59,701 nucleotides of DNA from a virus. The stretch lies in IMG/VR virus record IMGVR_UViG_3300028592_000011, positions 1-59,701 of that record; one strand, 5' to 3'. Below are positions 4,684 to 58,471 of this stretch, piece by piece; within the stretch, counting starts at the first letter, position 1; every line of letters starts with the position of its first letter. The position numbers and the translations under genes are program-made. Under the pieces are notes generated by a model. It was not told where the DNA came from. It saw only the letters and a list, made by a program, of their open reading frames with translations, and ran no database searches.

Positions 4684-6038
4684 ACGTCAAGACTCAGGTC
4701 GCTACGCTGTTTCGAAAAGCGGCCGGCATGCTTGCGCCTATCTCGGGCAGCACGTGGTCATGGTGGCCGCGCGTGCTCGAATCGTTCACGGGCGCCTGGC
4801 AGCAGAATGTCACTGTCGACCGCCCGACCGTTGTACAGAACTGGGCGGTGTTTTCGTGCGCGACGTTGATCGCGGGCGATATTGCGAAGATGCCGGCGGC
4901 GGTGATGGACTTCGACCGCGCACAGCGGATCTTCATTCCGACGCTGAACCGTCCGGTGCTGCGGCGTCCAAACCGCTATCAGACGTATGTTGACTTCATG
5001 CGGATGTGGGTACTGTCGTTGCTGCTCAATGGCAACACGTACGTGCTCAAGCAGCGCGATGACAATGGCTTCATCGTCGCTCTATACATCCTCGATCCCT
5101 GCCGAGTCACGCCACTCATTGCGGACGATGGAGGGATCTATTACCAGCTGAGCGAAGATCGCCTGTCACAGCTTGAGGAAAGCGTGGTTGTGCCTGCGAG
5201 CGAGATCATCCACGACCGACTATGGACGATCTATCACCCGCTGATCGGCGTGTCGCCGATATTTGCGTGTGGAGTCTCTGCCATGCAGGCAGCCGCGATC
5301 CAGCAGAACAGCGCTCTTTTCTTTCAGAACATGAGCCGGCCGAGCGGGATTCTCACTGCGCCCGGTTCGATTTCCGACGAAACCGCGACTCGATTGAAGA
5401 CAGCTTGGGAGGCGAACTACTCCGGCGCGAATGCCGGCAAGGTCGCAGTGCTCGGCGATAGCCTGACATACAGCGCGATGAGCATTACTGCCACTGATTC
5501 GCAGCTCATCGAGCAGCTGAAGTTCACCGGCGAGATGATCTGCGCCACGTTCCATGTGCCGCCGTACAAGCTGGGGCTCGGGCAGATGCCGACGGTCAAC
5601 AACGTCGCGGGCCTCAATCAGCAATACTACGACCAAGCGCTGCAGCCGCTCGTGGAGAACATCGAGCGCCGGCTGAAGGATGGCCTTGAGGTGAGCGATC
5701 CATCCGAAGTATGGCTGGACGAAGGCGTCTTGCTGCGTATGGACCCATCGACGCGCATGGACTCGCACATCAAGGCGATCAGCGGAGCACTGCTCGCGCC
5801 GAATGAAGCGCGGCGCATGGAGAACTGGGCACCGCAGGTAGGTGGCGACGTGCTGTATCTCCAGCAGCAGAATTTTAGCCTTGCGGCGCTGGCCAAACGT
5901 GACGCGAAGGACGACCCGTTTGCGAAGGAATCAAGCGTTGCGCCATCACCGGTGAGCCCGTCCGAAGAAGAGTTGGACAAGGCGTTTGCTGACGAACGAC
6001 GCGAATCTCCGCTTACGCTACGAAAGAAGGCTGCATAA
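4680..6038 (+). CDS. Portal protein, HK97 family
   Basis: 452 aa. It forms the dodecameric DNA gate at one capsid vertex. Family signatures: NWAVFSCATLIAGDIAKMP, NGNTYVLKQRDDNGFIVALY, HDRLWTIYHPLIGVSPI, QNSALFFQNMSRPSGIL, and FHVPPYKLGLG near 290. The C-terminal ~60 residues are polar and probably disordered. GTG start coupled to the preceding small gene. Its position after the capsid gene, instead of before the protease, is unusual. Confidence 0.93.
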   Translation: MNVKTQVATLFRKAAGMLAPISGSTWSWWPRVLESFTGAWQQNVTVDRPTVVQNWAVFSCATLIAGDIAKMPAAVMDFDRAQRIFIPTLNRPVLRRPNRYQTYVDFMRMWVLSLLLNGNTYVLKQRDDNGFIVALYILDPCRVTPLIADDGGIYYQLSEDRLSQLEESVVVPASEIIHDRLWTIYHPLIGVSPIFACGVSAMQAAAIQQNSALFFQNMSRPSGILTAPGSISDETATRLKTAWEANYSGANAGKVAVLGDSLTYSAMSITATDSQLIEQLKFTGEMICATFHVPPYKLGLGQMPTVNNVAGLNQQYYDQALQPLVENIERRLKDGLEVSDPSEVWLDEGVLLRMDPSTRMDSHIKAISGALLAPNEARRMENWAPQVGGDVLYLQQQNFSLAALAKRDAKDDPFAKESSVAPSPVSPSEEELDKAFADERRESPLTLRKKAA

Positions 6039-6947
6039 ATGGACCTGAAGAGCTTCGCCGCCGTCGTGATGAAGCACGTTCGGGAGTATGTGCAGCCAGC
6101 GATCGATGAACTCGCACAGAGGATCGACGCGATTCCTGCTGGTAAAGATGGGCGCGACGGCATCGATGGGAAAGACGGTTCGGCAGGCCGTGACGGCATC
6201 GACGGCAAGGACGGAGCACCCGGCGAAAACGGCCGTGATGGCGTGGATGGCAGGGACGGATCGCCAGGAGAGCGAGGCGCTGACGGTAAGGACGGTCGTG
6301 ACGGTGTCGATGGAAAGGACGGCCAGCCTGGCGCGAATGGTCGCGATGGCGTTGACGGGAAGGATGGCGCACCCGGCGCGGATGGCAAGGACGGCCGCGA
6401 TGGCATCGATGGAAAGGATGGTGCTCCGGGCCTCAACGGTAAGGACGGCGTCAATGGAATCGCTGGGAAGGATGGTGAGCCGGGTCGCAATGGTATCGAT
6501 GGCAAGTCCGTCACTGTGGACGACGTGCTGCCTCATTTCGAGCAGGCGTTCACGAAGTGGGCGCTGGATTTCGAGCGCCGTGCGCAGGACATCCACACGC
6601 GATTGCTCGCGAGTTTTGATAAGCCGAAGGACGGCATCGATGGCACGAACGGCAAGGACGGCTCTGACGGCCTCGGCTTCGACGATATGCGCGTTGAGCA
6701 CGACGGTGAGCGCGCATTCACACTGATCTTCGAACGCGGCGAGCAGCGCAAAGAGTTCACGTTTCAGCTTCCTGTCGTGCTCGAGCGCGGCGTGTACAAA
6801 GCCGGCCAGGATTACGAGCGTGGCGACGGCGTGACGGCGGATGGCAGTTATTGGATCGCGCAGAAAGCCAAGCCGAGTGGCCGCCCTGGGCAGTCGCCGG
6901 ACTGGCGATTGAGCGTCAAGCGCGGCCGTGATGGGAAGGGCGCCTAA
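6039..6947 (+). CDS. Collagen-like Gly-X-Y repeat structural protein
   Basis: 302 aa in three parts. Residues 1-34 form a helix. Residues 35-157 are 41 uninterrupted Gly-X-Y triplets dominated by GKD, GRD and GID, with a second short run (about 5 triplets) near 205. The C-terminal ~90 residues (FTLIFERGEQRKEFTFQLP, YKAGQDYERGDGVT, PDWRLSVKRG) are a carbohydrate-binding-like module of the type seen at phage fibre ends. It should trimerise into a rod. It starts 1 nt after the portal stop and ends overlapping the connector gene, so it is expressed as a head protein, perhaps a capsid or neck fibre. Confidence 0.85.
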   Translation: MDLKSFAAVVMKHVREYVQPAIDELAQRIDAIPAGKDGRDGIDGKDGSAGRDGIDGKDGAPGENGRDGVDGRDGSPGERGADGKDGRDGVDGKDGQPGANGRDGVDGKDGAPGADGKDGRDGIDGKDGAPGLNGKDGVNGIAGKDGEPGRNGIDGKSVTVDDVLPHFEQAFTKWALDFERRAQDIHTRLLASFDKPKDGIDGTNGKDGSDGLGFDDMRVEHDGERAFTLIFERGEQRKEFTFQLPVVLERGVYKAGQDYERGDGVTADGSYWIAQKAKPSGRPGQSPDWRLSVKRGRDGKGA

Positions 6948-7303: not shown

Positions 7304-7524
7304 ACGAAACAGTCAAGATTCTCCGCGCTTTCCGTCCTGGCGACGTGGTGTTTATCGAAGTTCCGGGTTCCCTGAGTTGCGAGGCTCACGCGAGGTATTC
7401 GGAGCATCTCAGTGCAGGACTGGAAGGAACGGGCGTGAAAGTCGTGATCCTTACAGAGGGGAGCCGCGTGGCCGCCGCTGAAGAGCATGTGGTAGCAACT
7501 GAAGAGAGTGCGGACACGAAGTGA
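7300..7524 (+). CDS. Hypothetical head-region protein (74 aa)
   Basis: Small protein beginning MNETVKILRAFRPGDVVFIE, with a VKVVILTEGS strand and a charged C-terminus. ATGA overlaps on both sides place it firmly in the head-tail joining operon. No family recognised. It could be an accessory connector or stabiliser. Confidence 0.75.
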   Translation: MNETVKILRAFRPGDVVFIEVPGSLSCEAHARYSEHLSAGLEGTGVKVVILTEGSRVAAAEEHVVATEESADTK

Positions 7525-7871
7525 GCCTGTCTGCCGGCCGTCTGCGCCACAAAATCAAAATCCAAGAGCCGAGGCAGCAGCAGGACCCGAATACGGGCGC
7601 GATCCGCACGGTGTGGGTGGACTTCGCCACTGATGTCGCGGCTGAGATCGCGCCGCTGAGCGTGCGCGAGTTCATCGCGTCGAGCCAGATGCAGAGTCAG
7701 ATCACTGCGCGCATCACGATCCGATATCGCGCGGGACTCACGGCGCAGATGCGGATCCTGCAGCCGAGCACCGGGAAAATTTATAACCCAGCTGGATGGC
7801 TGGCGGATCCGGACAGCGGGCGCGAGTACGTGACCGCCCCGTGTAGCGAAGGCGCGAACGCGGGAGATTGA
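7521..7871 (+). CDS. Head closure protein (SPP1 gp16 / PF05521-like)
   Basis: 116 aa, GTG start. It seals the connector after packaging and provides the tail-docking surface. The family pattern is present: AGRLRHKIKIQEPRQQQDPN, then VWVDFATDVAAEIAPLSVREF, QITARITIRYRAGL and a final GREYVTAP. It overlaps the preceding gene by 4 nt, and its TGA shares one base with the following ATG. In a standard cluster the next gene would be gp10-like; here the modification cassette is inserted. Confidence 0.85.
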   Translation: MSLSAGRLRHKIKIQEPRQQQDPNTGAIRTVWVDFATDVAAEIAPLSVREFIASSQMQSQITARITIRYRAGLTAQMRILQPSTGKIYNPAGWLADPDSGREYVTAPCSEGANAGD

Positions 7872-8398
7872 TGGACTTCGTTGTGCTCGCCACTGGCCAG
7901 TCGGTAACGGCTGATCAGGTGGAGTACGTCCGCGAGATGCACGCGGTCGGGAAGTGTGGCGCCATTGCGATCTCCGACATGTACGAGCTTGCGCCATGGG
8001 CCGATGCGCTCGTGAGTCAGGACCCGAACTGGTGGGCAAACAATCCCGAAGCATCGGAGTTTACGGGCCGGAAGTTCTGCGGTGGCTTCCATCCGGGCAC
8101 CGAGCGGTTGGAGCAGACCAGCGAGTTCCATTCCGGGCCGAATAGCGGCCTGCAAGGAATGCGCGTGGCGAGAGACGTGTTCCGGGCGAGCCGCATTGTG
8201 CTGATCGGCTTCGATATGCACGGTACGCACTACTTTGGTCCGCATCCAGATCCGTTACCGAACACGACGCCCGAGCGATTTCTGGCGCACATGAGGCAGT
8301 TCGCCGCGTGGCGGTCTGGCCTAGCCATCAACTGCACGCCGGGTTCGGCGCTGAAATGGTTTCCAACAGGCGATCTGCGTGAAGTTCTACGTCCTTGA
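7871..8398 (+). CDS. Rossmann-fold protein resembling GT42 sialyltransferases / DUF115 (copy A)
   Basis: 175 aa, ATG start overlapping the head-closure stop (TGATG). Motif order resembles GT42/MptE-like proteins: an N-terminal strand with a nucleotide loop (VVLATGQS), a middle NSGLQGMRVA helix, strand IVLIGFDMHGTHYFG, and a C-terminal NCTPGSALKWFP. This suggests a CMP- or other nucleotide-sugar transferase-like fold, but catalysis is inferred. A close paralogue lies at 11985-12509. First gene of the cassette. Confidence 0.72.
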   Translation: MDFVVLATGQSVTADQVEYVREMHAVGKCGAIAISDMYELAPWADALVSQDPNWWANNPEASEFTGRKFCGGFHPGTERLEQTSEFHSGPNSGLQGMRVARDVFRASRIVLIGFDMHGTHYFGPHPDPLPNTTPERFLAHMRQFAAWRSGLAINCTPGSALKWFPTGDLREVLRP

Positions 8399-9272
8399 CG
8401 AGCGCCACGTTTGGTTTGAGCCGATCATCAAGTCGGCCAAGGCGCGAGGATACGACGCTCGCCGAATCTTTCGCGGCGAGGAAGTGAACACAGAGGGCGT
8501 CGGGTTCATTCGATGCCACGCTGAACCTCAGGCGCTGCAGAAAAACCAGCGCGACTACGACCTGATGGCCGCTCGCCTGACGATGGTTCAGGACGAGACG
8601 CAGGTCAGGCTGTACGAAGACAAGAGCGGGCAATCCGCGCGCTGGTCCGAATGGATGCCGCCGACATGGCGATTCACCGATCGCGACGAGGCGCTGCAGT
8701 TCTGCGAGCGGGACGCACCGTATCCGCTGGTCAGCAAGGCGGATGTCGGGGCGAGCTCGGTCAACGTTCGCATCCTGAAGGACAAGCACGAGGCGATTGC
8801 GCACGTCGCATCGTTATTCGCTGCGGGCGTTCCGGTGCATCACTGCGCCGGCAATGCGAAGTCGGTTCAGAAGGGCTACGCACTGCTCCAGCAGTTCATC
8901 CCGCACACGGTCACGTGGCGCGTGAATGCGGTCGGCACGAAGCGTGCGGCCTTCATGCGCTACTGCTACCCCGATAGACCGGTGGCGCAGACGGGGAACG
9001 TTGAGCCAGTCATGACCGTGACCTCGCAGGTCGAATCGCTGCTGGAGTTTTCCAACAGGTTCCTGGAAGCGGCGGACACCAGGTGGTGCGCCATCGACGT
9101 GCTTCAGAACGGCGATCAGTGGCGATTGCTGGAAACAAGTCTTGCATTTCCATGGCCGTCGCCGGGCCGGTGCAACGACGCGCCGTTTTTCGGCACGAAG
9201 CGGCGCTGGATAGACATATTCGACGTGATGCTTGACGAGATCGAGGCTGGAACGTGGCAGAAGAAGCAATAG
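8379..9272 (+). CDS. ATP-grasp ligase-like protein
   Basis: 297 aa, GTG start overlapping copy A by 20 nt. The N-terminal third looks like a preATP-grasp domain. Then come PLVSKADVGASSVNVRIL (nucleotide Lys and Gly-rich loop, about residue 116), LLQQFIPHTVTWRVNAVG (about 169) and the metal-binding end WCAIDVLQNGDQWRLLETS (about 237). These match RimK-like ATP-grasp enzymes that join a carboxylate to an amine or thiol through an acyl phosphate. The substrate is unknown. It overlaps the next gene. Confidence 0.72.
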   Translation: MKFYVLDERHVWFEPIIKSAKARGYDARRIFRGEEVNTEGVGFIRCHAEPQALQKNQRDYDLMAARLTMVQDETQVRLYEDKSGQSARWSEWMPPTWRFTDRDEALQFCERDAPYPLVSKADVGASSVNVRILKDKHEAIAHVASLFAAGVPVHHCAGNAKSVQKGYALLQQFIPHTVTWRVNAVGTKRAAFMRYCYPDRPVAQTGNVEPVMTVTSQVESLLEFSNRFLEAADTRWCAIDVLQNGDQWRLLETSLAFPWPSPGRCNDAPFFGTKRRWIDIFDVMLDEIEAGTWQKKQ

Positions 9273-9571
9273 CGATAGCAACCCAGATCGCCGCACGCCG
9301 GCCGCTGTGGCGTCGATGCCTGTCGCGCGTGTTCGTCCTGTACATCGTTCTCAACATGGCGCTGTGCGCCGTCGTGTTCCTGCCGTGGGCGTTACCGCGA
9401 GAAACCATTTCCGGGCTGCTGGGCCGGTGGATCTCGACAGAGCAGGGATGGAAGCGCGTCGCTGGCCTGCTGCTGGGTGGGATTGCTGACCGTATCTATT
9501 GGTGGGAGCCCGATCACTGCGTCGAAGTCTACAAATGCGAGCATCGCGCGCGCGAGGTGCTGTACCCCTGA
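9254..9571 (+). CDS. Small single-pass membrane protein in the cassette
   Basis: 105 aa, GTG start inside the ATP-grasp 3' end. A basic N-terminus (AARRPLWRRCLSR) is followed by one strong membrane segment, VFVLYIVLNMALCAVVFLPW (about residues 27-46), then a Trp-rich cytoplasmic or periplasmic tail with CVEVYKCEHRAREVLYP. By the positive-inside rule the N-terminus is cytoplasmic. It may anchor the cassette enzymes at the inner membrane; this is inference. Confidence 0.68.
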   Translation: MAEEAIAIATQIAARRPLWRRCLSRVFVLYIVLNMALCAVVFLPWALPRETISGLLGRWISTEQGWKRVAGLLLGGIADRIYWWEPDHCVEVYKCEHRAREVLYP

Positions 9572-10260
9572 TGGATACCAGCAACCTCCGGCGCGCGGTG
9601 CCGGACTACGATACCGTCTCACTCAAGCGCTCGTGGATGCGGGCAGCGTTACCCGTCTTCGAGCAGCTAGGAGAACTGTCTGTCTTTCGTGCGATGTCCA
9701 TTGGCACGCGTCAGATTCTGTATCAGGCAATTCGAGCGATGGGCGCGACCAGCGTGCTGGACATCGGCACGTACACAGGGACCAGCGCTCTCAACTTCGC
9801 CCTGGCGACGGGCCGCGAAGGAAGCGTCGTGACGGTGGACATCGTCGACGCCAACGCGCCCGACGGATTCTGGGCCGTGGACAAGCGCCCGCGTTCGCCG
9901 CGTCAGCTCATGAAGGCAGCCGGGGTCGCGGAGCGCGTCGAGTTCGTGACGATGGATGCGAACGCCTACCTTCGCGAGACCGATCGCACGTTCGATTTTA
10001 TCTGCATCGACGCAGCGAAGACTGAGCAGGATACGTACGAGCAAATGGGGCTTGCACTGGCACGGCTACGACCTGACGGCCTGATCTTCATGGACGACGT
10101 ATTCGCCGATGGCGAGCCAATGCCGTCCGGTTACTTCGAGCCCGCACATTGGAACGTGCTTTGCCGCCTCGTGGATGAGGGTGTGGAGATCCATCCGATC
10201 CCAATCACAGAGACACTTCATGGCGCCCGGATTGCTTGTGCGTGGGTGATCGGCGAGTGA
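9571..10260 (+). CDS. SAM-dependent O-methyltransferase
   Basis: 229 aa; ATG 9571 was chosen because it overlaps the previous stop (TGATG). Class I Rossmann methyltransferase: motif I VLDIGTYTGTSALNFA (about residue 64), acidic motif II VVTVDIVDANAP, DAN-YL post-motif, FDFICIDAAKTEQDTYEQM and LIFMDDVFADG. The ICIDAAK segment and divalent-metal-type Asp residues resemble the caffeoyl-CoA/catechol O-methyltransferase family. It probably methylates a hydroxyl of a sugar or small molecule made by the cassette. Confidence 0.8.
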   Translation: MDTSNLRRAVPDYDTVSLKRSWMRAALPVFEQLGELSVFRAMSIGTRQILYQAIRAMGATSVLDIGTYTGTSALNFALATGREGSVVTVDIVDANAPDGFWAVDKRPRSPRQLMKAAGVAERVEFVTMDANAYLRETDRTFDFICIDAAKTEQDTYEQMGLALARLRPDGLIFMDDVFADGEPMPSGYFEPAHWNVLCRLVDEGVEIHPIPITETLHGARIACAWVIGE

Positions 10261-10901
10261 GAGATCGGATCGTCGCCCATCGCGGAAATGCGATGGAGCA
10301 CCGGGAGAATTCTGTCGCCGCGATTCGCTCCGCCGTTGAACTTGGAGCGCGGTTCGTCGAATTCGACGTGCAGATGTCGAGCGACATGGTGCCTGTCCTG
10401 ATGCACGACGCTTGTTTGCTCCGAACTGTGGGCAAGGACCGTGATTCCTTCGATACGAGCGCTCAGGGACTGAAGGCGCTGGGTGTCGAGCCCTTGTCCG
10501 AAGGCATTGCCGCGCTGGGAGATGCGACGGCGTTCGTTGAGATCAAGCGCGACAGCGTGACGAAATTCGGCGCTCGCGCGGTTGTTGATCGGGTGTGCCA
10601 GCACTGCCCGCCGGATCAATGCGTGATCATCTCGTTCGATTACGACGCGACGCTCCTGGCTCGAGCCAAGGGCTACCGCATCGGCTTCGTCCTGCCGGAC
10701 ATGGGCAAGAGGAGCCGGGCGAGCTGTGACGTGCACAAACCCGAGTACGTCTTCGTCGATCAGAAACACGTCACCGGCCCGGTGTGGCCAGGATTTCTGT
10801 GGGTGTCCTACGAGGTTGCAGATAGAGCGATGGCTGCGCGCCTGATTGGCTACGGCGTTGACCTGCTTGAGACCATGCGCGTCCGGCAGATGCTCCAATG
10901 A
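10257..10901 (+). CDS. Glycerophosphodiester phosphodiesterase (GDPD)
   Basis: 214 aa from GTG 10257, which overlaps the methyltransferase stop (GTGA). The GDPD active-site set is intact: IVAHRGNAMEHRENSV (catalytic His, Arg, Glu), FVEFDVQMSSD (metal Glu/Asp) and VLMHD (second His), then FVEIKRD and VIISFDYDATLL strands of the TIM barrel. No signal peptide, so it acts in the cytoplasm. It cleaves glycerol phosphodiesters; in this context it could release glycerol-3-phosphate or trim a phosphodiester-linked decoration. Confidence 0.85.
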   Translation: MRDRIVAHRGNAMEHRENSVAAIRSAVELGARFVEFDVQMSSDMVPVLMHDACLLRTVGKDRDSFDTSAQGLKALGVEPLSEGIAALGDATAFVEIKRDSVTKFGARAVVDRVCQHCPPDQCVIISFDYDATLLARAKGYRIGFVLPDMGKRSRASCDVHKPEYVFVDQKHVTGPVWPGFLWVSYEVADRAMAARLIGYGVDLLETMRVRQMLQ

Positions 10902-11617
10902 TCGCAGTCATAACGTTCAAGTGGTCGAAGCCAGGCTATCGAAGCACGTTCCTGCCGGTGCACGTCAACACGCTCCGACGGATGGTGGCCCGACATTACC
11001 CGCATCCGTTTCGATTCATCTGCGTGACTGACGATCCAGCGGGGCTGGATCCCGAGATCGAACATATCCCGCTATGGGATGACTACTCAGCGATCTCGAA
11101 TCCGTCCTGGCCGTCGGGCCCGAGCTGCTACCGCCGATTGAAAGTGCACTCGGATTGGTTCGCGGATCAGATTGGCCGCGGGACACGCATGGCTCTCATC
11201 GATCTTGATGTCGTGATCACGGATGACCTGACGCCGATCTTTCATCGAGAGGAACCGTTTCTGATGTGGGAGACCGGTAATCCATCCATCACGCACTGTG
11301 CATCGATGGTGATGGCGAGGGCGGGCGCTCACCCGGAGATATGGGACACGTTCGATTCCAAGACCTCGCCGCGCCTGGCAACACAGGACGGGCGGATGAA
11401 GGGCAGCGATCAAGCGTGGCTCTACTACGTGATGCGGAAACAGCTCGCCGGGTGGGGCACCAGACACGGCGTGTATTCGTATCGCGACCATTGCGTGAAG
11501 CAATATCAGAGCAAGCTGCCGAAGGGCGCGCGCATGGTCATATTCCACGGTCGGCCTGACCCTTGGTCCTATTCGGCGCTCCAGGCGTCTCCCTGGATTC
11601 ACGATCACTACTACTAG
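10898..11617 (+). CDS. GT-A fold glycosyltransferase
   Basis: 239 aa, ATGA overlap with GDPD. It starts with the strand IAVITFKWSKPGY, has FRFICVTDDP, a DxD-type metal motif in MALIDLDVVITDDLTPIF (about residue 106), GSDQAWLYYVM (about 165) and the family-typical end MVIFHGRPDPW (about 213). This matches a family of bacterial glycosyltransferases of unknown sugar specificity. Last enzyme of the cassette core; a 2-nt gap separates it from the tail-completion gene. Confidence 0.8.
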   Translation: MIAVITFKWSKPGYRSTFLPVHVNTLRRMVARHYPHPFRFICVTDDPAGLDPEIEHIPLWDDYSAISNPSWPSGPSCYRRLKVHSDWFADQIGRGTRMALIDLDVVITDDLTPIFHREEPFLMWETGNPSITHCASMVMARAGAHPEIWDTFDSKTSPRLATQDGRMKGSDQAWLYYVMRKQLAGWGTRHGVYSYRDHCVKQYQSKLPKGARMVIFHGRPDPWSYSALQASPWIHDHYY

Positions 11618-11619
11618 CG

Positions 11620-11988
11620 ATGACGCCCTCAGTATTCGCCATCGTCTCGGCATCCAGCGCGTGCCGGGCAGTGCTCGGCAGCCCGCCGAACATGCGCTTC
11701 TATCCGTTTGGCGAGGCGCCGCAAGGCAAGCCTCCGGTTTACGCCGTGTGGCAGATGCCGTTCAGCACGCCGGCTAACTATTTGGGACAGGTGCCCGACG
11801 CGGACAATGCCCGAGTGCAGATCGATGTTTATGGAACGGATCAGGCGGCCGTCACCACAGCCGGGCTTGCTATCCGGGATGCGATCCAGGAACACGCGAA
11901 CATGATCAACGCGGCTCAGCGTCCGCGCGATCCCACGACGCGCAACTACGGCTACATGCTCGACTTCGAGTTCGTCACGGACAGATGA
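11620..11988 (+). CDS. Tail completion/terminator protein, DUF3168-like
   Basis: 122 aa from ATG 11620, just after the glycosyltransferase stop. The pattern SVFAIVSASSACRAVLG, PPVYAVWQMP, NARVQIDVYGTDQAAVTTAGLAIRDAI and a final GYMLDFEFVTD is that of gpU/gp17-like proteins that cap the tail and join it to the head. It is a standard morphogenesis gene caught between two cassette genes. Confidence 0.8.
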   Translation: MTPSVFAIVSASSACRAVLGSPPNMRFYPFGEAPQGKPPVYAVWQMPFSTPANYLGQVPDADNARVQIDVYGTDQAAVTTAGLAIRDAIQEHANMINAAQRPRDPTTRNYGYMLDFEFVTDR

Positions 11989-12509
11989 CGACATGCGTCG
12001 TGCTTGCTACCGGCGAGAGCTTATCGCCGTGGCAAGTCGCGCACGTTCGAGCCGCACACGACGAAGGCCGCTGTAAGGCGGTCGCCGTGTCGGATGCTTA
12101 CCAGCTCGCGCCATGGGCGGATGCGATGGTGAGCAATGACATGCGGTGGTGGCGGCAGCACCCGGAGGCGGTGAAGTTCGCTGGCCGGAAGTTCTGCGGG
12201 GCTGATTACCGGGGCACCGAACGATTGCCACCCAACCCGACGTTTCCAGCCGGGACTAACAGTGGACTACAGGGCATGCGCGTGGCGGCAATGCTGGGAG
12301 CAACGCGGATCGTCCTGCTTGGGCTCGACATGAAGGGCACCCACTACTTCGGCAAGCATCCGTCGACGCTGAAGAACTCAACGCCCGCTGATTTCGAGCG
12401 GATGCTGATTCAGTTCCGCCGATGGAGATCGGACGCCGAAGTCATCAACTGCTCACCGGGTAGCGCGCTCACGTGCTTCAAGACCGCGAATCTCGCCGAC
12501 GTGTTGTGA
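11985..12509 (+). CDS. Rossmann-fold GT42/DUF115-like protein (copy B)
   Basis: 174 aa, ATGA overlap with the tail-completion gene. It is clearly paralogous to 7871-8398: VVLATGESLS, DAYQLAPWADAMVSND, GRKFCG, GTERL, TNSGLQGMRVAAMLGATRIV, LGLDMKGTHYFGKHP and NCSPGSALTCF align along the full length with roughly half the residues identical. The pair brackets the cassette. Both keep the same conserved residues, so both are probably active. Confidence 0.72.
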   Translation: MTTCVVLATGESLSPWQVAHVRAAHDEGRCKAVAVSDAYQLAPWADAMVSNDMRWWRQHPEAVKFAGRKFCGADYRGTERLPPNPTFPAGTNSGLQGMRVAAMLGATRIVLLGLDMKGTHYFGKHPSTLKNSTPADFERMLIQFRRWRSDAEVINCSPGSALTCFKTANLADVL

Positions 12510-12625
12510 CACCGTGCAAGCCGTGTTCGGCCGCACGTCGGTTCCTGCCTCAGAAACTGCGTGATCGATTGGAGCAGTTGGAACAGCGATGGCGGAAGAA
12601 GTTGAAGGACTCGGCGAACTCCTGA
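12506..12625 (+). CDS. Small CxxC basic protein (39 aa)
   Basis: GTG start overlapping the previous TGA (GTGA); product MTPCKPCSAARRFLPQ... ending LKDSANS. A CKPC motif plus a basic helix is common in tiny phage proteins. It overlaps the gp10-like start by 37 nt in another frame, so it may also simply bring ribosomes to that gene. Function unknown. Confidence 0.45.
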   Translation: MTPCKPCSAARRFLPQKLRDRLEQLEQRWRKKLKDSANS

Positions 12626-13071
12626 GGACGCTTCAGGCGCTGCCGAAAGAGATCGTGAGCGTCAAGGGTGGACCGGTGCGCACTGGCCTGAGAGCGGCCG
12701 GGAAGGTCTGGCAGCGCGCGGCGCAAGCAAACATCGATCGCATCGTCGCCGCGCCGAACAAGGACGGCCGACCCAGCGTGTCGAGCGGCACGCTCAAGAA
12801 CGCCGTGATCGTGAGTCGTGACCCCAATCCGCAAAGGTCAGGTGCGAATGAGCGCGTGCTGGTGAGGCTCCGAAAGAAGGGGCGCGCGCCAAATGGACAA
12901 TCGGTTCATGCGTACGGCGGCATGCTCGAGTTCGGCAATGAGCAAGTACCGGCCAAGTCTTGGCTACGTCCTGTCGTGCCCGAGAAGTCGTCCGAGGCGC
13001 TGAGCGTCTTTATCACCGAGACACGCAAGGCGATTGATCGCGCCGTGAAGCGAGCGCGTCGGAAAGGTTGA
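12589..13071 (+). CDS. HK97 gp10-like tail component
   Basis: 160 aa. Basic protein with the HK97-gp10_like layout: GLGELLRTLQALPKEI, helix LRAAGKVWQRAAQANI, GTLKNAVIVSRD, YGGMLEFGNEQVPAKSWLRP, and a basic C-terminal helix. The EFG...PAxxWLRP signature is diagnostic. It takes part in head-tail joining. It is followed by two terminators that end this transcription segment. Confidence 0.87.
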   Translation: MAEEVEGLGELLRTLQALPKEIVSVKGGPVRTGLRAAGKVWQRAAQANIDRIVAAPNKDGRPSVSSGTLKNAVIVSRDPNPQRSGANERVLVRLRKKGRAPNGQSVHAYGGMLEFGNEQVPAKSWLRPVVPEKSSEALSVFITETRKAIDRAVKRARRKG

Positions 13072-29633: not shown

Positions 29634-30716
29634 TCACTTTTTAACATTGATTTTCACCCACTCACCGCGGCCATCAACGTAGGTCGCAGTGGACTTCGGG
29701 TCCTTGTGACTGAGCAAGTCTTGAGGGTCCACATCGCCCTGCTCCTTGTGCAGTCGGGCCGCCAATGACCGAATCTCGTGGAAGGTTGGCGGCGCCTTGT
29801 CAGCCCAGTCGATGCCCAGCTTCGCGAGCTCGGCGGAGAATACCCGAGTGATCATGTCCACGTGCAATGGCTTGCCGATCGTGGCGCCCTTGACTCGCTG
29901 GGTCTGGTGTACGAGGTAGATACTCACGATGCCAGTCTTGCGGCACTGGCTGACGACATCCTCGAGACTCATGCCAAAGACGTTCAGGCGTAGATGCATC
30001 GGCAGGAAGAAGCGTGCGCCTGTTTTGGTTCGCTCGCACCACCAGCCACCATCGCGGAAGTCTGTGAATTTCGCATTCCGAACGCTATCCCGGTCTTTGC
30101 CAGCCACAAGCGCGAGGGCGATGGCATTGCGTAGCCATACGATCTCGGTGGTTTTGTAGAGCCTCATAAGCACGTCCAGCGTGAGCCTGGAGCGCTTCAC
30201 CTTGACCTTGACCTCATCCAGCACCCGCGCCGGGTTGTCCTTGCGCCAGCCCTTGGCGATCATCCTGTCGAAGCAGTCGACCAAGAATGACCGGAATGCC
30301 TGAGCAGTGCGGGCTTTGCCTTCCGAGGTGATCTGGTCAATCACCTTGGCACAGTCCTGCGTGCTGATGCGCGAGGCGGCCAGATCAGCCTCGAAGCACC
30401 GACGTAGGCGGTTCAGCTGGCTCTTGCGGGTGCGTCGCGTATTCGGCCTGGAGTCGCGCTCCTCCAGGATCTTCTCGAAGATGTCGCACCACTCGCCCCA
30501 AGTGTTAGCTGCTCCGGTGATGCGCTCGAGCAGGCTAGGGCGCTTCGATGCGAGGTACACCTCTGCGGCGAGAACTTCCTGGATGGCCTTCGTCCGATCG
30601 CGGCCGAGCCCATGCTCGACGCCAGTCTCGGGGTTCGTCCACGAGTAGTAGCCATCGCGCACTCGCATACCAGGCCGAAGGGAACGATTGATCGCTTTAC
30701 GCTGCCTTGGAGCCAT
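29634..30716 (-). CDS. int: Lambda-type tyrosine integrase
   Basis: 360 aa from ATG 30716. N-terminal arm-binding domain (RKAINRSLRPGMRVRDGYYS), SAM-like core-binding domain about 70-170, catalytic domain with the Lys in ERTKTG, HEIRSLAARL (His/Arg), LLSHKDPKSTATY (second His and the nucleophile Tyr) and the lambda-like end GRGEWVKI. The first catalytic Arg, expected in TGxR, appears as AGKDRDS, one residue off. Integrates phage DNA into the host; excisionase overlaps its start. Confidence 0.93.
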   Translation of the reverse strand: MAPRQRKAINRSLRPGMRVRDGYYSWTNPETGVEHGLGRDRTKAIQEVLAAEVYLASKRPSLLERITGAANTWGEWCDIFEKILEERDSRPNTRRTRKSQLNRLRRCFEADLAASRISTQDCAKVIDQITSEGKARTAQAFRSFLVDCFDRMIAKGWRKDNPARVLDEVKVKVKRSRLTLDVLMRLYKTTEIVWLRNAIALALVAGKDRDSVRNAKFTDFRDGGWWCERTKTGARFFLPMHLRLNVFGMSLEDVVSQCRKTGIVSIYLVHQTQRVKGATIGKPLHVDMITRVFSAELAKLGIDWADKAPPTFHEIRSLAARLHKEQGDVDPQDLLSHKDPKSTATYVDGRGEWVKINVKK

Positions 30717-30906
30717 AGAAACCAGCTGCCTTCGATGGGTCGCGACCGATGAAGACCGCGCTCGGATCAACATAGTACGGCTTCCCGACGCGCTCAGGAG
30801 CTGGGAAAATCCACCCGTCGCGGGCCCAGCGCTGCAGCGTCTTGATGTTGGGCACCGGATCGAACCGAGCAGCTGCCCATGCCTGCAATGTGATCTTCTT
30901 GCTCAT
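30697..30906 (-). CDS. xis: Excisionase, lambda Xis-like
   Basis: 69 aa. Winged-helix pattern like lambda Xis: ITLQAWAAARFDPVPNIKTL, RWARDGWIFPAPERVGKPYY, VDPSAVFI. It binds attachment-site arms and directs integrase toward excision. It overlaps int by 20 nt, ensuring joint expression from the leftward operon. Confidence 0.88.
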   Translation of the reverse strand: MSKKITLQAWAAARFDPVPNIKTLQRWARDGWIFPAPERVGKPYYVDPSAVFIGRDPSKAAGFYGSKAA

Positions 30907-42399: not shown

Positions 42400-42477
42400 T
42401 GGCGAACCGGACGGGATTCGAACCCGCACAAAACGCATTGAAAGTGCGTTCGCTTTGACCAATTTGCATACCGGTTC
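42400..42477 (-). tRNA. tRNA-Glu (UUC anticodon)
   Basis: Cloverleaf on the - strand: acceptor GAACCGG/CCGGTTC, anticodon arm ACGCA-CTTTCAA-TGCGT giving anticodon TTC, T arm with GTTCGAATC, discriminator G and an encoded CCA at 42402-42400. The D stem is short (3 pairs). It lies in the leftward operon and would be processed from it. Confidence 0.9.
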
Positions 42478-44154: not shown

Positions 44155-45309
44155 CCTAGGCCGGCCGATATTCATGCCGCCGCCATCGCCAGCGATGACG
44201 AAGACTCGTTCCCGCGCATGGAGGCTCGACACCTGAGCCCGACAGTCAGAATGTTTCTCGCGGCGTTGATGTCGCGATCATGCTTGGCTCCACACTCCGA
44301 GCATTCCCACTGCCTTACAACGAGACCTGTCCGGCCTGCGGGACCCGTGAGGGCTCCGCAGCCGCTGCAGGCTCGCGTTGTGAATCTCTCGTTGACGATC
44401 TCAACCGTTCTGCCGGCGTACTCGCCCTTGTATCGCAGCTGGTCGCGCAGCAGCCCCCACCCAGCATCGAGCACGGACTTCGCCATCCGTGTCTTAGCCA
44501 ATCGAGTGCTACTCACGTCGCCGATGAATATCTGGTCGTACTGGCGCACGAGCAGAGTCGAAAACTTGTGCATGGAGTCGCGGCGCTGATTTACGGCGCG
44601 GCGATGCAACCGCTTAGCCTGACGCCTATGGCCGCGGCGTTGTGCCTGAGCGATCTTGATTTCCAGTTGACGGTAGTGGCGCCCCTCAAGGCGGTCACCG
44701 TCACTGGTCACGGCTGTATCCTTGCAGCCCAGATCAATCCCCACTGCCTCGCGCTCTGGCGCTGTCTGCTCGATCTGTACTTCCACAGGGATGCACAGCC
44801 ACCACGTACCGCAGGCGTCTTGTGCGAAACAGCCATCGCGAAACCGCACACCATCCAGTCGCTCGCGCTCGAACACGCGGAATGACTTCCCACAGAAACG
44901 GATTCCAGCGCCTTTGCGCTTGATGGTGACGGCCTTGAACGGCACCCAGCCGAGACTACGACGCGCGCCACGACTCACGCGCCAGCGAAGACGTGGGCGC
45001 TTCGCGATCCGCCGCTTTGCGGCGTACTCGCAGTTGATGCGCTGGATTGTGTCGGCCCCGATGTGTTCGAAGTACTCAGACGCACCGGCGCTCAAATTGC
45101 ACAGATCGAAACCGCTCAGCCACTTGGCGTTTGCACGACGGTTGCGATCCGCTGCATCGATGCTGGTGGCATTGGCCCAATTCCAAACATCGTTGCATTC
45201 GATGGCGGCCGCATTCAGCCACGCATACGCATTAGTCTGCACCTTGAGTCGCAGAGTGCGCGTGAGCGAGGCGGTGTGCATTCAAACTCTCCCAGTTGGC
45301 CTAGGCCGG
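44155..45309. mobile_element. TnpB-only insertion bounded by 10-bp direct repeats
   Basis: CCTAGGCCGG occurs in direct orientation at 44155-44164 and 45300-45309, bracketing exactly one gene. Outside them, the left neighbour's ribosome-binding site and the right neighbour's stop are only 15-20 nt away. No TnpA transposase and no clear terminal hairpins were recognised. Excision by repeat recombination would restore a normal intergenic gap. Confidence 0.55.
44172..45281 (-). CDS. TnpB-like (IS605 OrfB) protein with altered RuvC-II site
   Basis: 369 aa. RuvC-I Asp in AVGIDLGCKDTAVTSDG (about residue 181); zinc finger CSGCG...CSECG; RuvC-III Asp in HDRDINAARN. The RuvC-II segment reads QIFIGDVSSTRLAKT where active TnpBs have a Glu (VEDL-like), so the usual catalytic Glu is Gly; a Glu in VNERFTTRACSGCG could be a relocated one. 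TnpB proteins are RNA-guided nucleases; this could be active with a rearranged site or act as a nuclease-dead RNA-guided regulator. Confidence 0.88.
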   Translation of the reverse strand: MHTASLTRTLRLKVQTNAYAWLNAAAIECNDVWNWANATSIDAADRNRRANAKWLSGFDLCNLSAGASEYFEHIGADTIQRINCEYAAKRRIAKRPRLRWRVSRGARRSLGWVPFKAVTIKRKGAGIRFCGKSFRVFERERLDGVRFRDGCFAQDACGTWWLCIPVEVQIEQTAPEREAVGIDLGCKDTAVTSDGDRLEGRHYRQLEIKIAQAQRRGHRRQAKRLHRRAVNQRRDSMHKFSTLLVRQYDQIFIGDVSSTRLAKTRMAKSVLDAGWGLLRDQLRYKGEYAGRTVEIVNERFTTRACSGCGALTGPAGRTGLVVRQWECSECGAKHDRDINAARNILTVGLRCRASMRGNESSSSLAMAAA

Positions 45310-49794: not shown

Positions 49795-50709
49795 ATGTTT
49801 TTCAAGAATCTCGTCGTCTACCGCTTGCCCGCCGACTGGGCTGTGTCTGCTGCCGAACTGGAGGAGAAGCTGGCGGCGCGCTCGCTCATGCCATGCGGCA
49901 GCTTCGACATGCAGAGCCGAGGTTGGGTGTTCTCCAGCGATCTTGGCCGCTACGTCCACGCAGTCAACGGCCAGCTTCTGATCGCGCTCGGCGTCGATCA
50001 GAAGATCCTGCCGGCCAGCGTGATCAATCAGGCCACTGCCGAGCGTGCGAAGGGACTGGCGGAGGAGCAGGGCTACCCCGTGGGCCGTCGGCAGATGCGT
50101 GAGCTCAAGATGCGCGTCACCGAAGAACTGCGCGGCCGCGCACTGACTCGCAAGCGCATCACTCATGCCTGGATTGATCCTAAGAACGGATTGCTGGTGG
50201 TGAATGCGTCGAGCGAGGGCAAGGCCGAAGAGGTGGTCGAGGCGCTGCGCAACGATCTGGGCAGCTTGCAGGTTACGTATCTCGAGACGGAGCGCTCGCC
50301 GTCGGCATCGATGACTGCCTGGCTGGCGCTGGGCGATGCGCCAGCAACGTTCTCCATCGATGCTGATTGTGAGTTGCAGGCGGCAGACCAGAGCCGGCCG
50401 ACAATCCGGTACGCGCGATGCCAGCTGGATGCGAAGGAAATCCGCACCCAGATCACCGGTGGCATGTTCGCGACGCGCCTTGGCCTGACCTGGAAGGATC
50501 GCGTTGCCTTCGTCCTCAACGAGAAGCTGCAGCTCCGGAAGATCGAGTTCCTGCTGATCGGCAAGGACAAGCCGGCCGACGGTGAATCAGTCAGCCCGGG
50601 CGAGCAGTTCGACATCGACTTCACGCTGATGACCGGCGAGCTTGCGGCACTGTTGAGCGATCTGCAGCGGGCGCTTGGTGCCGGCGAGGGTCTGGCTCAG
50701 GCGGCGTGA
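49795..50709 (+). CDS. rdgC: RdgC-like DNA-binding protein
   Basis: 304 aa, the length of bacterial RdgC. MFFKNLVVYRLPADWAVSAA, RSLMPCGSFDMQSRGWVFSS, LIALGVDQKILPASVINQAT, RGRALTRKRITHAWIDPKNG, LLVVNASSEGKAEEVVEALR and the end FDIDFTLMTGELAALLSDLQ are all RdgC motifs. RdgC forms a ring on DNA and blocks RecA filament exchange. Shine-Dalgarno AGAGGT upstream. Confidence 0.93.
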   Translation: MFFKNLVVYRLPADWAVSAAELEEKLAARSLMPCGSFDMQSRGWVFSSDLGRYVHAVNGQLLIALGVDQKILPASVINQATAERAKGLAEEQGYPVGRRQMRELKMRVTEELRGRALTRKRITHAWIDPKNGLLVVNASSEGKAEEVVEALRNDLGSLQVTYLETERSPSASMTAWLALGDAPATFSIDADCELQAADQSRPTIRYARCQLDAKEIRTQITGGMFATRLGLTWKDRVAFVLNEKLQLRKIEFLLIGKDKPADGESVSPGEQFDIDFTLMTGELAALLSDLQRALGAGEGLAQAA

Positions 50710-52970: not shown

Positions 52971-53150
52971 TTGAAAGGTTCAGACTGGGTTCTGGTTTGG
53001 TCGTGGGCGGCGTTCCTGCTGTTCCTCGGCCCGTTTCTCATCTCAGCCCGCGACAGCCTCATGGTGTTCGTTGGCTTGGGGATTCTTGCTGCGCTGGTCT
53101 ACTTCACGCAGCGTCGTATCGTTCCAATCATCCAGGAGAAAATTAAGTGA
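52971..53150 (+). CDS. Two-pass membrane protein (59 aa)
   Basis: TTG 52971 preferred because AGGAG lies 8 nt upstream; an ATG at 52956 overlaps that site. WVLVWSWAAFLLFLGPFLIS and SLMVFVGLGILAALVYF are membrane segments, with a basic end. Directly coupled to the SPFH gene (GTGA), so probably an inner-membrane partner. Confidence 0.65.
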   Translation: MKGSDWVLVWSWAAFLLFLGPFLISARDSLMVFVGLGILAALVYFTQRRIVPIIQEKIK

Positions 53151-54001
53151 GAAAGATCCTATTGGTCATGATTGCGCTGGCGCTCAGCGCGTGCTCGAAG
53201 GTTCCTGCCGGCAATGTCGGCATCAAGTTCTACCTGCTGGGCGGCGACAAGGGCGCGGACACCGAGGAGCTTGGGCCCGGCCGATACTGGATCGGGGTCA
53301 ACGAGGAATTGTATCTGTTCCCCACGTTCACGCAGAACTACACCTGGACCAAGGAGCCGATTGACGGCGACGCCGCTGACGAGTCGATCACGTTCCAGAC
53401 GAATCAGGGCCTGTCGGTCAATGCGGATGTCGGCATTAGCTACGCAGTCGATCCGAGAAAGGTCACCGATCTATTCCAGAAGTATCGCAAGGGCATCGAA
53501 GAGATCACCGACACGTACTTGCGCAACATGGTTCGCGATGCACTTGTGACAGCTGCCAGCACGCGCGAGATTGAGATGGTGTACGGCCAGGGCAAGGCGG
53601 AGTTACTGGCCGAGGTTGAAAAGCGCGTCCGCGAGCAGGTCGACCCGCTGGGCATCAAGATCGAACGTTTGTATTGGGCCGGCGACTTCCGGCTGCCAGC
53701 GACAGTGACGGCCGCCATTGACGCCAAGATCAAGGCCACGCAATTCGCTCAGCAACGCGCCAACGAAGTCGCGGCCGCCAAGGCCGAAGCAGACAAGGCC
53801 GTCGAAGAGGCGCGCGGCGTTGCTGAATCCACCTTGCTCAAGGCGAAGGCCGAAGCCGAAGCGATCCGCATCAAGGGATCTGCGCTCTCCGAGAATCCCA
53901 AGCTCGTGGAACTGTCCGCCGTCGAGAAGTGGGACGGCAAGATGCCTCAGTTCACCGGCGGTGGTGCTATCCCGTTTGTGACGGTGCCACAGGGCAAGTG
54001 A
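53147..54001 (+). CDS. SPFH/band-7 (prohibitin-like) lipoprotein
   Basis: 284 aa, GTG start. Lipoprotein signal RKILLVMIALALSAC with lipobox LSAC; SPFH core VPAGNVGIKFYLLGGDKGAD, ITFQTNQGLSVNADVGISYA, RDALVTAASTREIEMVYGQG, IERLYWAGDFRLPATVTAAI; then a coiled coil (ANEVAAAKAEADKAVEEARG). SPFH proteins form large membrane rings (HflK/C) that regulate FtsH. The phage copy could alter host envelope or protease control. Confidence 0.85.
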   Translation: MRKILLVMIALALSACSKVPAGNVGIKFYLLGGDKGADTEELGPGRYWIGVNEELYLFPTFTQNYTWTKEPIDGDAADESITFQTNQGLSVNADVGISYAVDPRKVTDLFQKYRKGIEEITDTYLRNMVRDALVTAASTREIEMVYGQGKAELLAEVEKRVREQVDPLGIKIERLYWAGDFRLPATVTAAIDAKIKATQFAQQRANEVAAAKAEADKAVEEARGVAESTLLKAKAEAEAIRIKGSALSENPKLVELSAVEKWDGKMPQFTGGGAIPFVTVPQGK

Positions 54002-56715: not shown

Positions 56716-57983
56716 TGGCCTGGGAAGACGTAACCGCCAGCTTCTCGGAGATGCCCGCGGAGCTGGGCGGCACCGATGGCCGCAAGGTCATGCTGGATAT
56801 CCCCAGCGAGGATTGGGGCGAGCAGGTAGGCACAGGCGCGTCAGCAACGCGTATCGTTGGTGGCGCCTTCGACGGATCAGACTCGATTCGACTGGTCCCG
56901 CCGACGGTTGACGAGAGCTACGCTTGTATCCTGCGGTTTCTGGACCTCAGTGACGGCGGCGACAAAGACGTTGCGCAGGTCAACCTCGGCTTCTGCATCA
57001 AGGCAGGCCCCACGTATTGGAGCCTTGCAGGTGAGGATAAGCTGACCGGCGTTCAGGCGAGCACCACGGTAGGTGGCGAACCGAACGCCTCGCTATCTCG
57101 TGCGGCCATCTTCGATGCGCACAAGGCGCCCGGTGATGACCGGCGCCTGTACTCGATCACGGCAACCACCGTTGCAAGCTATCATCAACCGCCCTCGGGA
57201 ACCTTCCCGGACACGGGCGATGACGAAGATAAGTTGCTCATCCTAGGCAACACCTCGGATCATGACAACGATCCGCCGCTGGTCAACTCCGAGTGGCTGT
57301 ACTTCGAGCAAGAGGTCGACTACCGGCAGGACCGCGGTAACGCGAACGGCCGCAACCGATTGGATGTCTGGTCGCGCGACGGATATCTGGGATATCTCGA
57401 GATCCCGCTGAGCTGGCGTGAAACCGGACCAGATCCAGACGGCGATCCGTGGGACTTCTCATATCGCTATGCCCGGGTCATTGAGTTCATCGGTGGCTAC
57501 TGGAACGATCAAGCCACACCTGACGAGGACAACTATCTCGAGCTGTCGCACGTCATCGTCGCGGTCAACCGGGCGAAGGACGCGCGGATTGGGCCGCCGG
57601 AGGAGTTCACGGAGGGTGAGGACCCAGATCCGGATCCGGACACGACGCCGAATGCGTTTTCGTTCACGGACCAGACCGGTGTCGCGCGCTCAAGCACGAT
57701 CACCTCAGCGCCGGTCACGATCACGGGCATCGATGCTACCGTTACGTTCGATGCAACAGGTGGGACAATCGATGTCAACGGAGACGGTGATTTCCAAACA
57801 TCTCGCGATGTGACGAACGGTGATCAGATCAGGGCTCGGCATACGAGCAGCGCCAGTTACCTCACTGCGGTCAATACATTGGTTGAGGGTGGCGGCGTCT
57901 CGGACACGTTCACCAGTACGACCTTGGAAGAAGGCGAGGTCATCCCTCCAGCCTATCGATGGTTCAGAGTGCCCCGCAGATGA
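56715..57983 (+). CDS. Lyase/lectin-like virion protein (422 aa)
   Basis: Start shares a base with the previous stop. The N-terminal ~290 residues form a beta-sandwich like heparin- or alginate-lyase/LamG domains (YACILRFLDLSDGGDKDVAQ, YLEIPLSWRETGPDPDGDPW, IEFIGGYWNDQATPDEDNYL), then an acidic DPDPDPDTTP linker and an Ig-like C-terminal domain (TSAPVTITGIDATVTFDATG). Looks like a tail decoration or adhesin. Its TGA overlaps the next ATG. Confidence 0.75.
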   Translation: MAWEDVTASFSEMPAELGGTDGRKVMLDIPSEDWGEQVGTGASATRIVGGAFDGSDSIRLVPPTVDESYACILRFLDLSDGGDKDVAQVNLGFCIKAGPTYWSLAGEDKLTGVQASTTVGGEPNASLSRAAIFDAHKAPGDDRRLYSITATTVASYHQPPSGTFPDTGDDEDKLLILGNTSDHDNDPPLVNSEWLYFEQEVDYRQDRGNANGRNRLDVWSRDGYLGYLEIPLSWRETGPDPDGDPWDFSYRYARVIEFIGGYWNDQATPDEDNYLELSHVIVAVNRAKDARIGPPEEFTEGEDPDPDPDTTPNAFSFTDQTGVARSSTITSAPVTITGIDATVTFDATGGTIDVNGDGDFQTSRDVTNGDQIRARHTSSASYLTAVNTLVEGGGVSDTFTSTTLEEGEVIPPAYRWFRVPRR

Positions 57984-58471
57984 CCGAATGTATCGCCAAG
58001 ATCAAAGCCTGTCAGGGTGATCAGGCCAAGCTCGACTATGCGTTCGACCTGACCGAGCGTTTCGCGATTCCGCGGCAGCCGAACCATCCGTACGCGGAGA
58101 GCGCCTGCGTGCGGCCGACCGAGGGCGAAACAGGGCGTCAGTATCGCTCAAGCGGTGGCGTCACCAACGGTGATGACTTCGAACCGCAATGGCCGGCAGA
58201 GGATGGCGGCGAGGTTGTTGACGGCTCACTCACGTGGACCGGTGAGGACATCACGTTCGAGAGCCTGCGCTACCGGATCGACAGCGTCGAATGGACTGCG
58301 CCGGATGGCATCACGCTCTCGGATGAACTGGTCATCGATCAGCCAGCACTGCAGGAGGCGCGAGTCACCGTGGCAGGTGGTGTCGCCGGCCAGAAGTACC
58401 GCATCGTCGGCGTGGTCACGACCACGACTGGCCTCGAGTACGAAGTGCGGATTGAGTTGAAGGTGAAGTGA
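57980..58471 (+). CDS. Virion-associated beta protein (163 aa)
   Basis: ATG 57980 (ATGA overlap). CIAKIKACQGDQAKLDYAFD then GEDITFESLRYRIDSVEWTA and GQKYRIVGVVTTTTGLEYEV. The C-terminal part matches a common phage structural pattern in which a linear stretch of sample-like beta strands ends in a YRIVxxVTTxxGxxYE motif. Probably a fibre-tip accessory. Confidence 0.75.
   Translation: MTECIAKIKACQGDQAKLDYAFDLTERFAIPRQPNHPYAESACVRPTEGETGRQYRSSGGVTNGDDFEPQWPAEDGGEVVDGSLTWTGEDITFESLRYRIDSVEWTAPDGITLSDELVIDQPALQEARVTVAGGVAGQKYRIVGVVTTTTGLEYEVRIELKVK

Follow-up and report, generated by a model that had tools for sequence, protein, structure and literature searches.

The question raised by this locus is why a phage should carry a set of glycosyltransferase-like, ligase and methyltransferase genes among its head-tail joining genes, and what these enzymes act on. 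The window (the whole stretch of DNA analyzed here, a virus record of 59.7 kb) has a late operon and an integrase gene at 29634-30773 (- strand), so that the phage is probably a temperate bacterial virus. A transposase gene (44172-45281, -) and a tRNA-Glu gene (42400-42477, -) lie with the integrase in the non-structural half; an RdgC-like protein (49795-50709), an SPFH/Band 7 protein (53147-54001) and a Gp77-type fibre-tail adaptor (57959-58471) are also encoded. The order of the late operon is terminase, protease, capsid, portal, collagen-like fibre, gp6, Hc1, the cassette, gp10 and major tail protein, and the cassette and its borders are composed as follows.

7521..7871, +, Hc1 head-closure protein, upstream border (phrog_25, E 2e-27)
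7871..8398, +, ST-A, a 175-aa sialyltransferase/MptE-like Rossmann protein (phrog_4603, E 3e-21)
8379..9272, +, ATP-grasp ligase of the LysX/ArgX/RimK fold (AF2 and Foldseek)
9254..9571, +, TM, a small membrane protein with the motif RETISGLxGR...HC (one hydrophobic segment)
9571..10260, +, OMT, a SAM-dependent O-methyltransferase, optional (PF01596 1.6e-14; PF13578 1.7e-15; 5lhm 7e-12)
10257..10901, +, GDPD-family glycerophosphodiester phosphodiesterase, optional (PF03009 1.8e-21; 1o1z 2.9e-12)
10898..11617, +, GT, a GT-A glycosyltransferase, GT8/glycogenin-like (phrog_1962, 2e-13)
11620..11988, +, gp17 tail terminator/completion protein, inside the cassette (PF11367 1e-13; phrog_78)
11985..12509, +, ST-B, a second sialyltransferase/MptE-like protein (phrog_4603, 2e-30; AF2 pLDDT 95.6)
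about 12506..12625, +, small Cys-rich ORF of 39 codons (same frame in contigs L003, L008 and L009)
12589..13071, +, gp10-like neck/tail completion protein, downstream border (phrog_5, 2e-9)

The first-pass annotation had described two ST proteins, an ATP-grasp, a TM protein, an OMT, a GDPD and a GT as one unit of the late operon with the tail-completion gene in its midst. Indeed, all were found on the + strand at 7871-12509, its broad family assignments were correct, gp17 sits between GT and ST-B, and starts and stops overlap at TGATG (Hc1/ST-A and TM/OMT), GTGA (OMT/GDPD) and ATGA (GDPD/GT and gp17/ST-B), by 20 nt at ST-A/ATP-grasp and by 19 nt at ATP-grasp/TM, the 2-nt gap of GT/gp17 being the sole junction without overlap. 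The ST-B–gp10 gap is occupied by the Cys-rich ORF (CKPCSAARR...), which that annotation lacked; it overlaps both the stop of ST-B and the start of gp10 and was met solely alongside ST-B. A foreign origin by composition was rejected, the GC (59-63%) and GC3 (72-79%) of the cassette being similar to those of neighbouring genes.

The AF2 model of the ATP-grasp protein (pLDDT 90.5) has the RimK/LysX fold: Foldseek ranks 1-9 were all LysX/ArgX/RimK-type enzymes (ArgX 2e-14, LysX 1.5e-12, RimK 6e-12; range for these amino-acid ligases 2e-14 to 1e-11), followed by D-Ala ligases, synapsin and the RiPP ligases PruB, MdnC and PsnB. Residues K82, K120, D240 and E252 are invariant or nearly so among 14 homologues, and from the fold we take the lysines to be those of the ATP site and the two acidic residues to be metal ligands, both kept as in the LysX/ArgX/RimK enzymes. 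The window protein differs from these in being only 14-18% identical to them and in its third metal-ligand position, usually Asn, which is Ser in 13 of the 14 homologues. No match to it was present among 50,697 records of isolated phages, and pattern-based searches, run twice over 84,980 genomes with the ATP-grasp and capsid alignments, gave none.

ST-A and ST-B (57% identity) both belong to phrog_4603 ('alpha-2,3-sialyltransferase'), whose HMM covers nearly the full length of each, and the conserved ST residues look catalytic. The PHROG name is a lead, short of an identification, because Foldseek with the ST model returned no solved structure at E<0.001 and no significant match to solved glycosyltransferases, and the sequence profile of Cst-II matched just at E 0.014; Cst-II was not among the 50 Foldseek matches listed. 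The best fold probabilities were for MptE (HPPK) and thiamine pyrophosphokinase (prob 0.96, E about 0.03), and the MptE-like family PF01973 was matched by ST-B at 11.7 bits, below its curated cut-off of 34.6, and by ST-A not at all, with matches at E<=0.1 in 28 of 46 ST homologues (best 1.5e-7). The ST thus has some likeness to both Cst-II and MptE, but is just 174 aa long and both matches fall below usual significance. GT42 membership was therefore rejected, and the former label 'GT42/DUF115-like' holds at the superfamily level only.

The remaining enzymes were placed by their profiles. OMT scored 54.1 bits against the PF01596 cut-off of 22, and GDPD 77.8 bits against the PF03009 cut-off of 23.6, with the His/Glu-Asp/His catalytic residues kept (H8-R9, E35/D37, H50) and its GTG start backed by relatives that begin MRDRIVAHRGN; enzymes of this family act on glycerophosphodiesters. 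For GT, the profile search reached glycogenin at 1.4e-4 and the DxD motif (D102xD104) is invariant across 21 homologues, only one of which reached Pfam GT8 (E 0.068). The TM protein, which alone in the cassette has a membrane segment (single hydrophobic segment, hydropathy peak 2.52 at residue 26), matched no family except, weakly, a PHROG of unknown function, and a search of isolated phages with its L038 homologue found none; in 12 long contigs, as in L011, it is conserved together with the ATP-grasp.

That other phages would share the set, on which the first-pass reading depended, was borne out by HMM mapping across 133 loci. ST–ATP-grasp–TM–(OMT/GDPD)–GT occurs in the same order in 12 IMG/VR contigs, namely the window and L003, L004, L008, L009, L016, L017, L018, L019, L038, L059 and L077 (L017 and L038 being closely related to each other), and in reordered form in a thirteenth, L011 (ATP-grasp-TM-OMT-GT, then an ST-like gene), where it adjoins a major head protein of another family than that of the window. 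ST, ATP-grasp, TM and GT are the core present in all 12 ordered contigs, while OMT, GDPD and ST-B can be missing: six of the contigs have GDPD and six lack it, OMT is found in the window and L016 only, and ST-B is confined to the closest relatives. OMT is an exact single-gene presence/absence, window positions 9573 and 10258 being adjacent in the DNA of L008 and L009, and the breakpoints coincide with the start/stop overlaps. At the site of the OMT, L003 has a 60-codon DnaJ-type zinc-ribbon ORF (11192-11381), and in L009 an HNH-endonuclease-like gene (5323-5901) is inserted between GT and gp17.

Against L003, the nearest long relative, dN/dS was 0.03-0.16 for the six shared cassette genes (OMT, absent from L003, lies outside the comparison), approximately the range of the structural genes, so that these six are under purifying selection. 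The same gene order in 12 contigs, together with these values, means that the arrangement is not due to chance. Moreover, in a diverged contig, L054, a Mu F-like head protein is soon followed by ATP-grasp, OMT, a further methyltransferase, an NAD-dependent (NDP-sugar-type) epimerase/dehydratase and GT. Relatives with an NDP-sugar epimerase or extra glycosyltransferases at the same location back the nucleotide-sugar part of the sugar chemistry proposed earlier; the proposed trimming of a glycan by phosphodiester cleavage is unsupported, as both GDPD and OMT can be missing from the module.

The ST gene keeps close to the virion genes. Among ST loci gathered irrespective of genomic location, the distance to a head or connector gene was within 4 kb in 73 of 75, and the connector genes near ST were all on its strand (179/179); further homologues, D3 orf7 and PAJU2 ORF010, are both beside connector genes. 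In a sample drawn by portal similarity, 9 of the 37 contigs spanning the region had ST and none of the 37 had ATP-grasp; in its full form the cassette is therefore an uncommon, optional insertion. The match of L008 to the window spans the neck, cassette and tail genes from Hc1 onward (ATP-grasp 79%, GT 89%, gp10 88%, MTP 85%), with only distantly related head genes (MCP 32%, portal 39%), which indicates that the cassette was inherited with a neck/tail block. Such inheritance speaks for an acceptor among the products of this block, but linkage by itself would give the same picture.

The collagen-like protein, one of the possible targets named in the first-pass annotation, is weakened as such. 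Its gene (6039-6947) matches phrog_1289, and the C-terminal part resembles, by eye, a carbohydrate-binding module. Relatives sampled by portal similarity nearly all carry the fibre gene, whether or not they have the cassette; its repeats range from 0 to 76 triplets among relatives, and repeat number was not significantly associated with ST presence (Fisher p=0.44). The idea of the fibre as a special target was therefore set aside as unsupported. DNA hypermodification was also rejected, as no base-modification genes were seen in those replication-region ORFs that were scanned (a part of them) and the late position is unfitting, and so was anti-phage defence, for which PADLOC yielded just a generic methyltransferase match to mad2.

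Phage P1 offers the known relatives, with pmgO in phrog_4603 (E 4e-74) and pmgQ in phrog_1962 (E 2e-127), separated by pmgP and the phosphatase gene ppp and adjoined by pmgR. PmgP matches phrog_4603 weakly (1.8e-5; the pmgO-pmgQ region is L223 4872-7430), so that P1 may carry two ST-like genes, pmgO and pmgP, judging by this similarity. The late genes pmgO-pmgP-ppp-pmgQ are thus like the window in having both families, tandem ST-like genes, a phosphoesterase between and pmgR adjacent; they differ in being without ATP-grasp, membrane protein, OMT and GDPD and in being reported nonessential. According to the paper on the P1 virion proteome (PMC9024508), deletion of pmgR leaves heads and tails unjoined; PmgO, PmgP, PmgQ and Ppp go unnamed in its main text. 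A CRISPRi study (PMC10695390) scored pmgO, pmgP, ppp and pmgQ as nonessential and lists them as nonessential also in a deletion survey; P1 knockouts of these homologues are reported to plaque without defect. Since pmgO and pmgQ are reported to be dispensable and are unnamed in that main text, the cassette is probably catalytic and accessory.

Tetraselmis viridis virus S20 is similar in having, between capsid and Hc1, two ST genes, a methyltransferase and a 45% identical GT (the full set being ST x2, GT2, GT-D, methyltransferase and GT); it differs in its GT2 and GT-D enzymes, and ATP-grasp and GDPD were not recognised in it. Freeman et al. 2023 are said to have found that mycobacteriophage-encoded glycosyltransferases decorate virion proteins. 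The likeness to the window lies in the phage-encoded glycosyltransferases, the window cassette being known here from its genes. To our knowledge, the mycobacteriophage virion-glycosylation systems are without the ATP-grasp/ST/TM set.

We give about an even chance to the reading that the locus is an accessory cassette for glycan modification, expressed late, whose likeliest acceptors are virion proteins of the neck/tail block; it probably decorates virus particles late in infection, the host cell being less likely. In the scheme that we infer, for the reactions and their order as for the role of TM, the acceptor and the benefit, the GT-A (GT8-like) enzyme would use an NDP-sugar as donor to place a sugar on an acceptor within the host cytoplasm, a second, nucleotide-linked group would be added or activated by the ST/MptE-like proteins, and the RimK/LysX-type ATP-grasp would form an amide on the acceptor with an amino acid or amino sugar, OMT and GDPD presumably being optional tailoring enzymes and the TM protein perhaps holding enzymes or substrate to the inner membrane. 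The likeliest acceptor would be a neck/tail-block virion protein assembled at that time, and the benefit may be, for example, masking of the particle or its stability outside the cell. A cytosolic acceptor fits because only TM has a membrane segment and the cassette holds no flippase, polymerase or lipid-linked GT, and an accessory enzyme fits because of the homology to P1 pmgO/pmgQ and their reported nonessentiality (PMC10695390). As counterpoints, a late-operon position can arise by hitch-hiking without any virion target, TM and GDPD could be equally compatible with the envelope, the ST model is without a significant glycosyltransferase match and the P1 knockouts plaque normally as reported. 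A more specific form, in which a RimK-type ligase and a GT8-like GT, together with tailoring of the ST-like and methyl kinds, build a tag of both sugar and amino acid as a dedicated neck/tail-protein modification passed with the neck/tail genes between unrelated phages, is put forward tentatively.

The alternative that survives best, though unlikely, is that LPS or lipid head groups of the host envelope are modified late, blocking superinfection or the re-adsorption of progeny to debris, with TM and GDPD acting there. TM is part of the core set, and glycerophosphodiesters are the substrates of the GDPD family. Alteration of the host surface by phage glycosyltransferases is a familiar phenomenon (noted in PMC10955285). 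However, the flippase, polymerase and lipid-linked GT are lacking from the cassette, its enzymes are without membrane segments, about half of the module contigs have no GDPD, and the genes as a set stay tied to the virion operon. We regard as less likely still that the cassette makes a small nucleotide-, amino-acid- or peptide-linked molecule, ST being a pyrophosphokinase like MptE and the ATP-grasp a ligase of the peptide/RiPP type: the best-probability folds of ST, the MptE-like Pfam matches of its homologues and the resemblance of ATP-grasp to PruB, MdnC and PsnB speak for it, but those ST folds match at E about 0.03 only, the dedicated GT-A and, in relatives, the NDP-sugar-type epimerase and GT-D/GT2 enzymes indicate sugar, and a carrier or precursor peptide was not identified, the Cys-rich ORF being seen only with ST-B. 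Least likely is that the ST homologues are virion components and the remaining genes passengers (morons) without a common product, for although PAJU2 ORF010 bears the record label 'structural protein' and P7 hdmB and P1 pmgO have morphogenesis-type names, the apparently catalytic ST residues, the recurrent ordered set, the nonessential pmgO, pmgP, pmgQ and ppp (PMC10695390) and the absence of their products from the P1 proteome main text (PMC9024508) speak against it.

Returning to the glycan-modification reading, the recurring module ties P1 pmgO/pmgQ-type late genes to sugar transfer and an amide ligase in the virion operon, and the P1 homologues open the matter to experiment in a laboratory phage. 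Should the acceptor be the virion, particle modification would be widespread beyond actinobacteriophages and have a richer chemistry than glycosylation alone, which would bear on how stable phages are, how they adsorb and how they are recognised.
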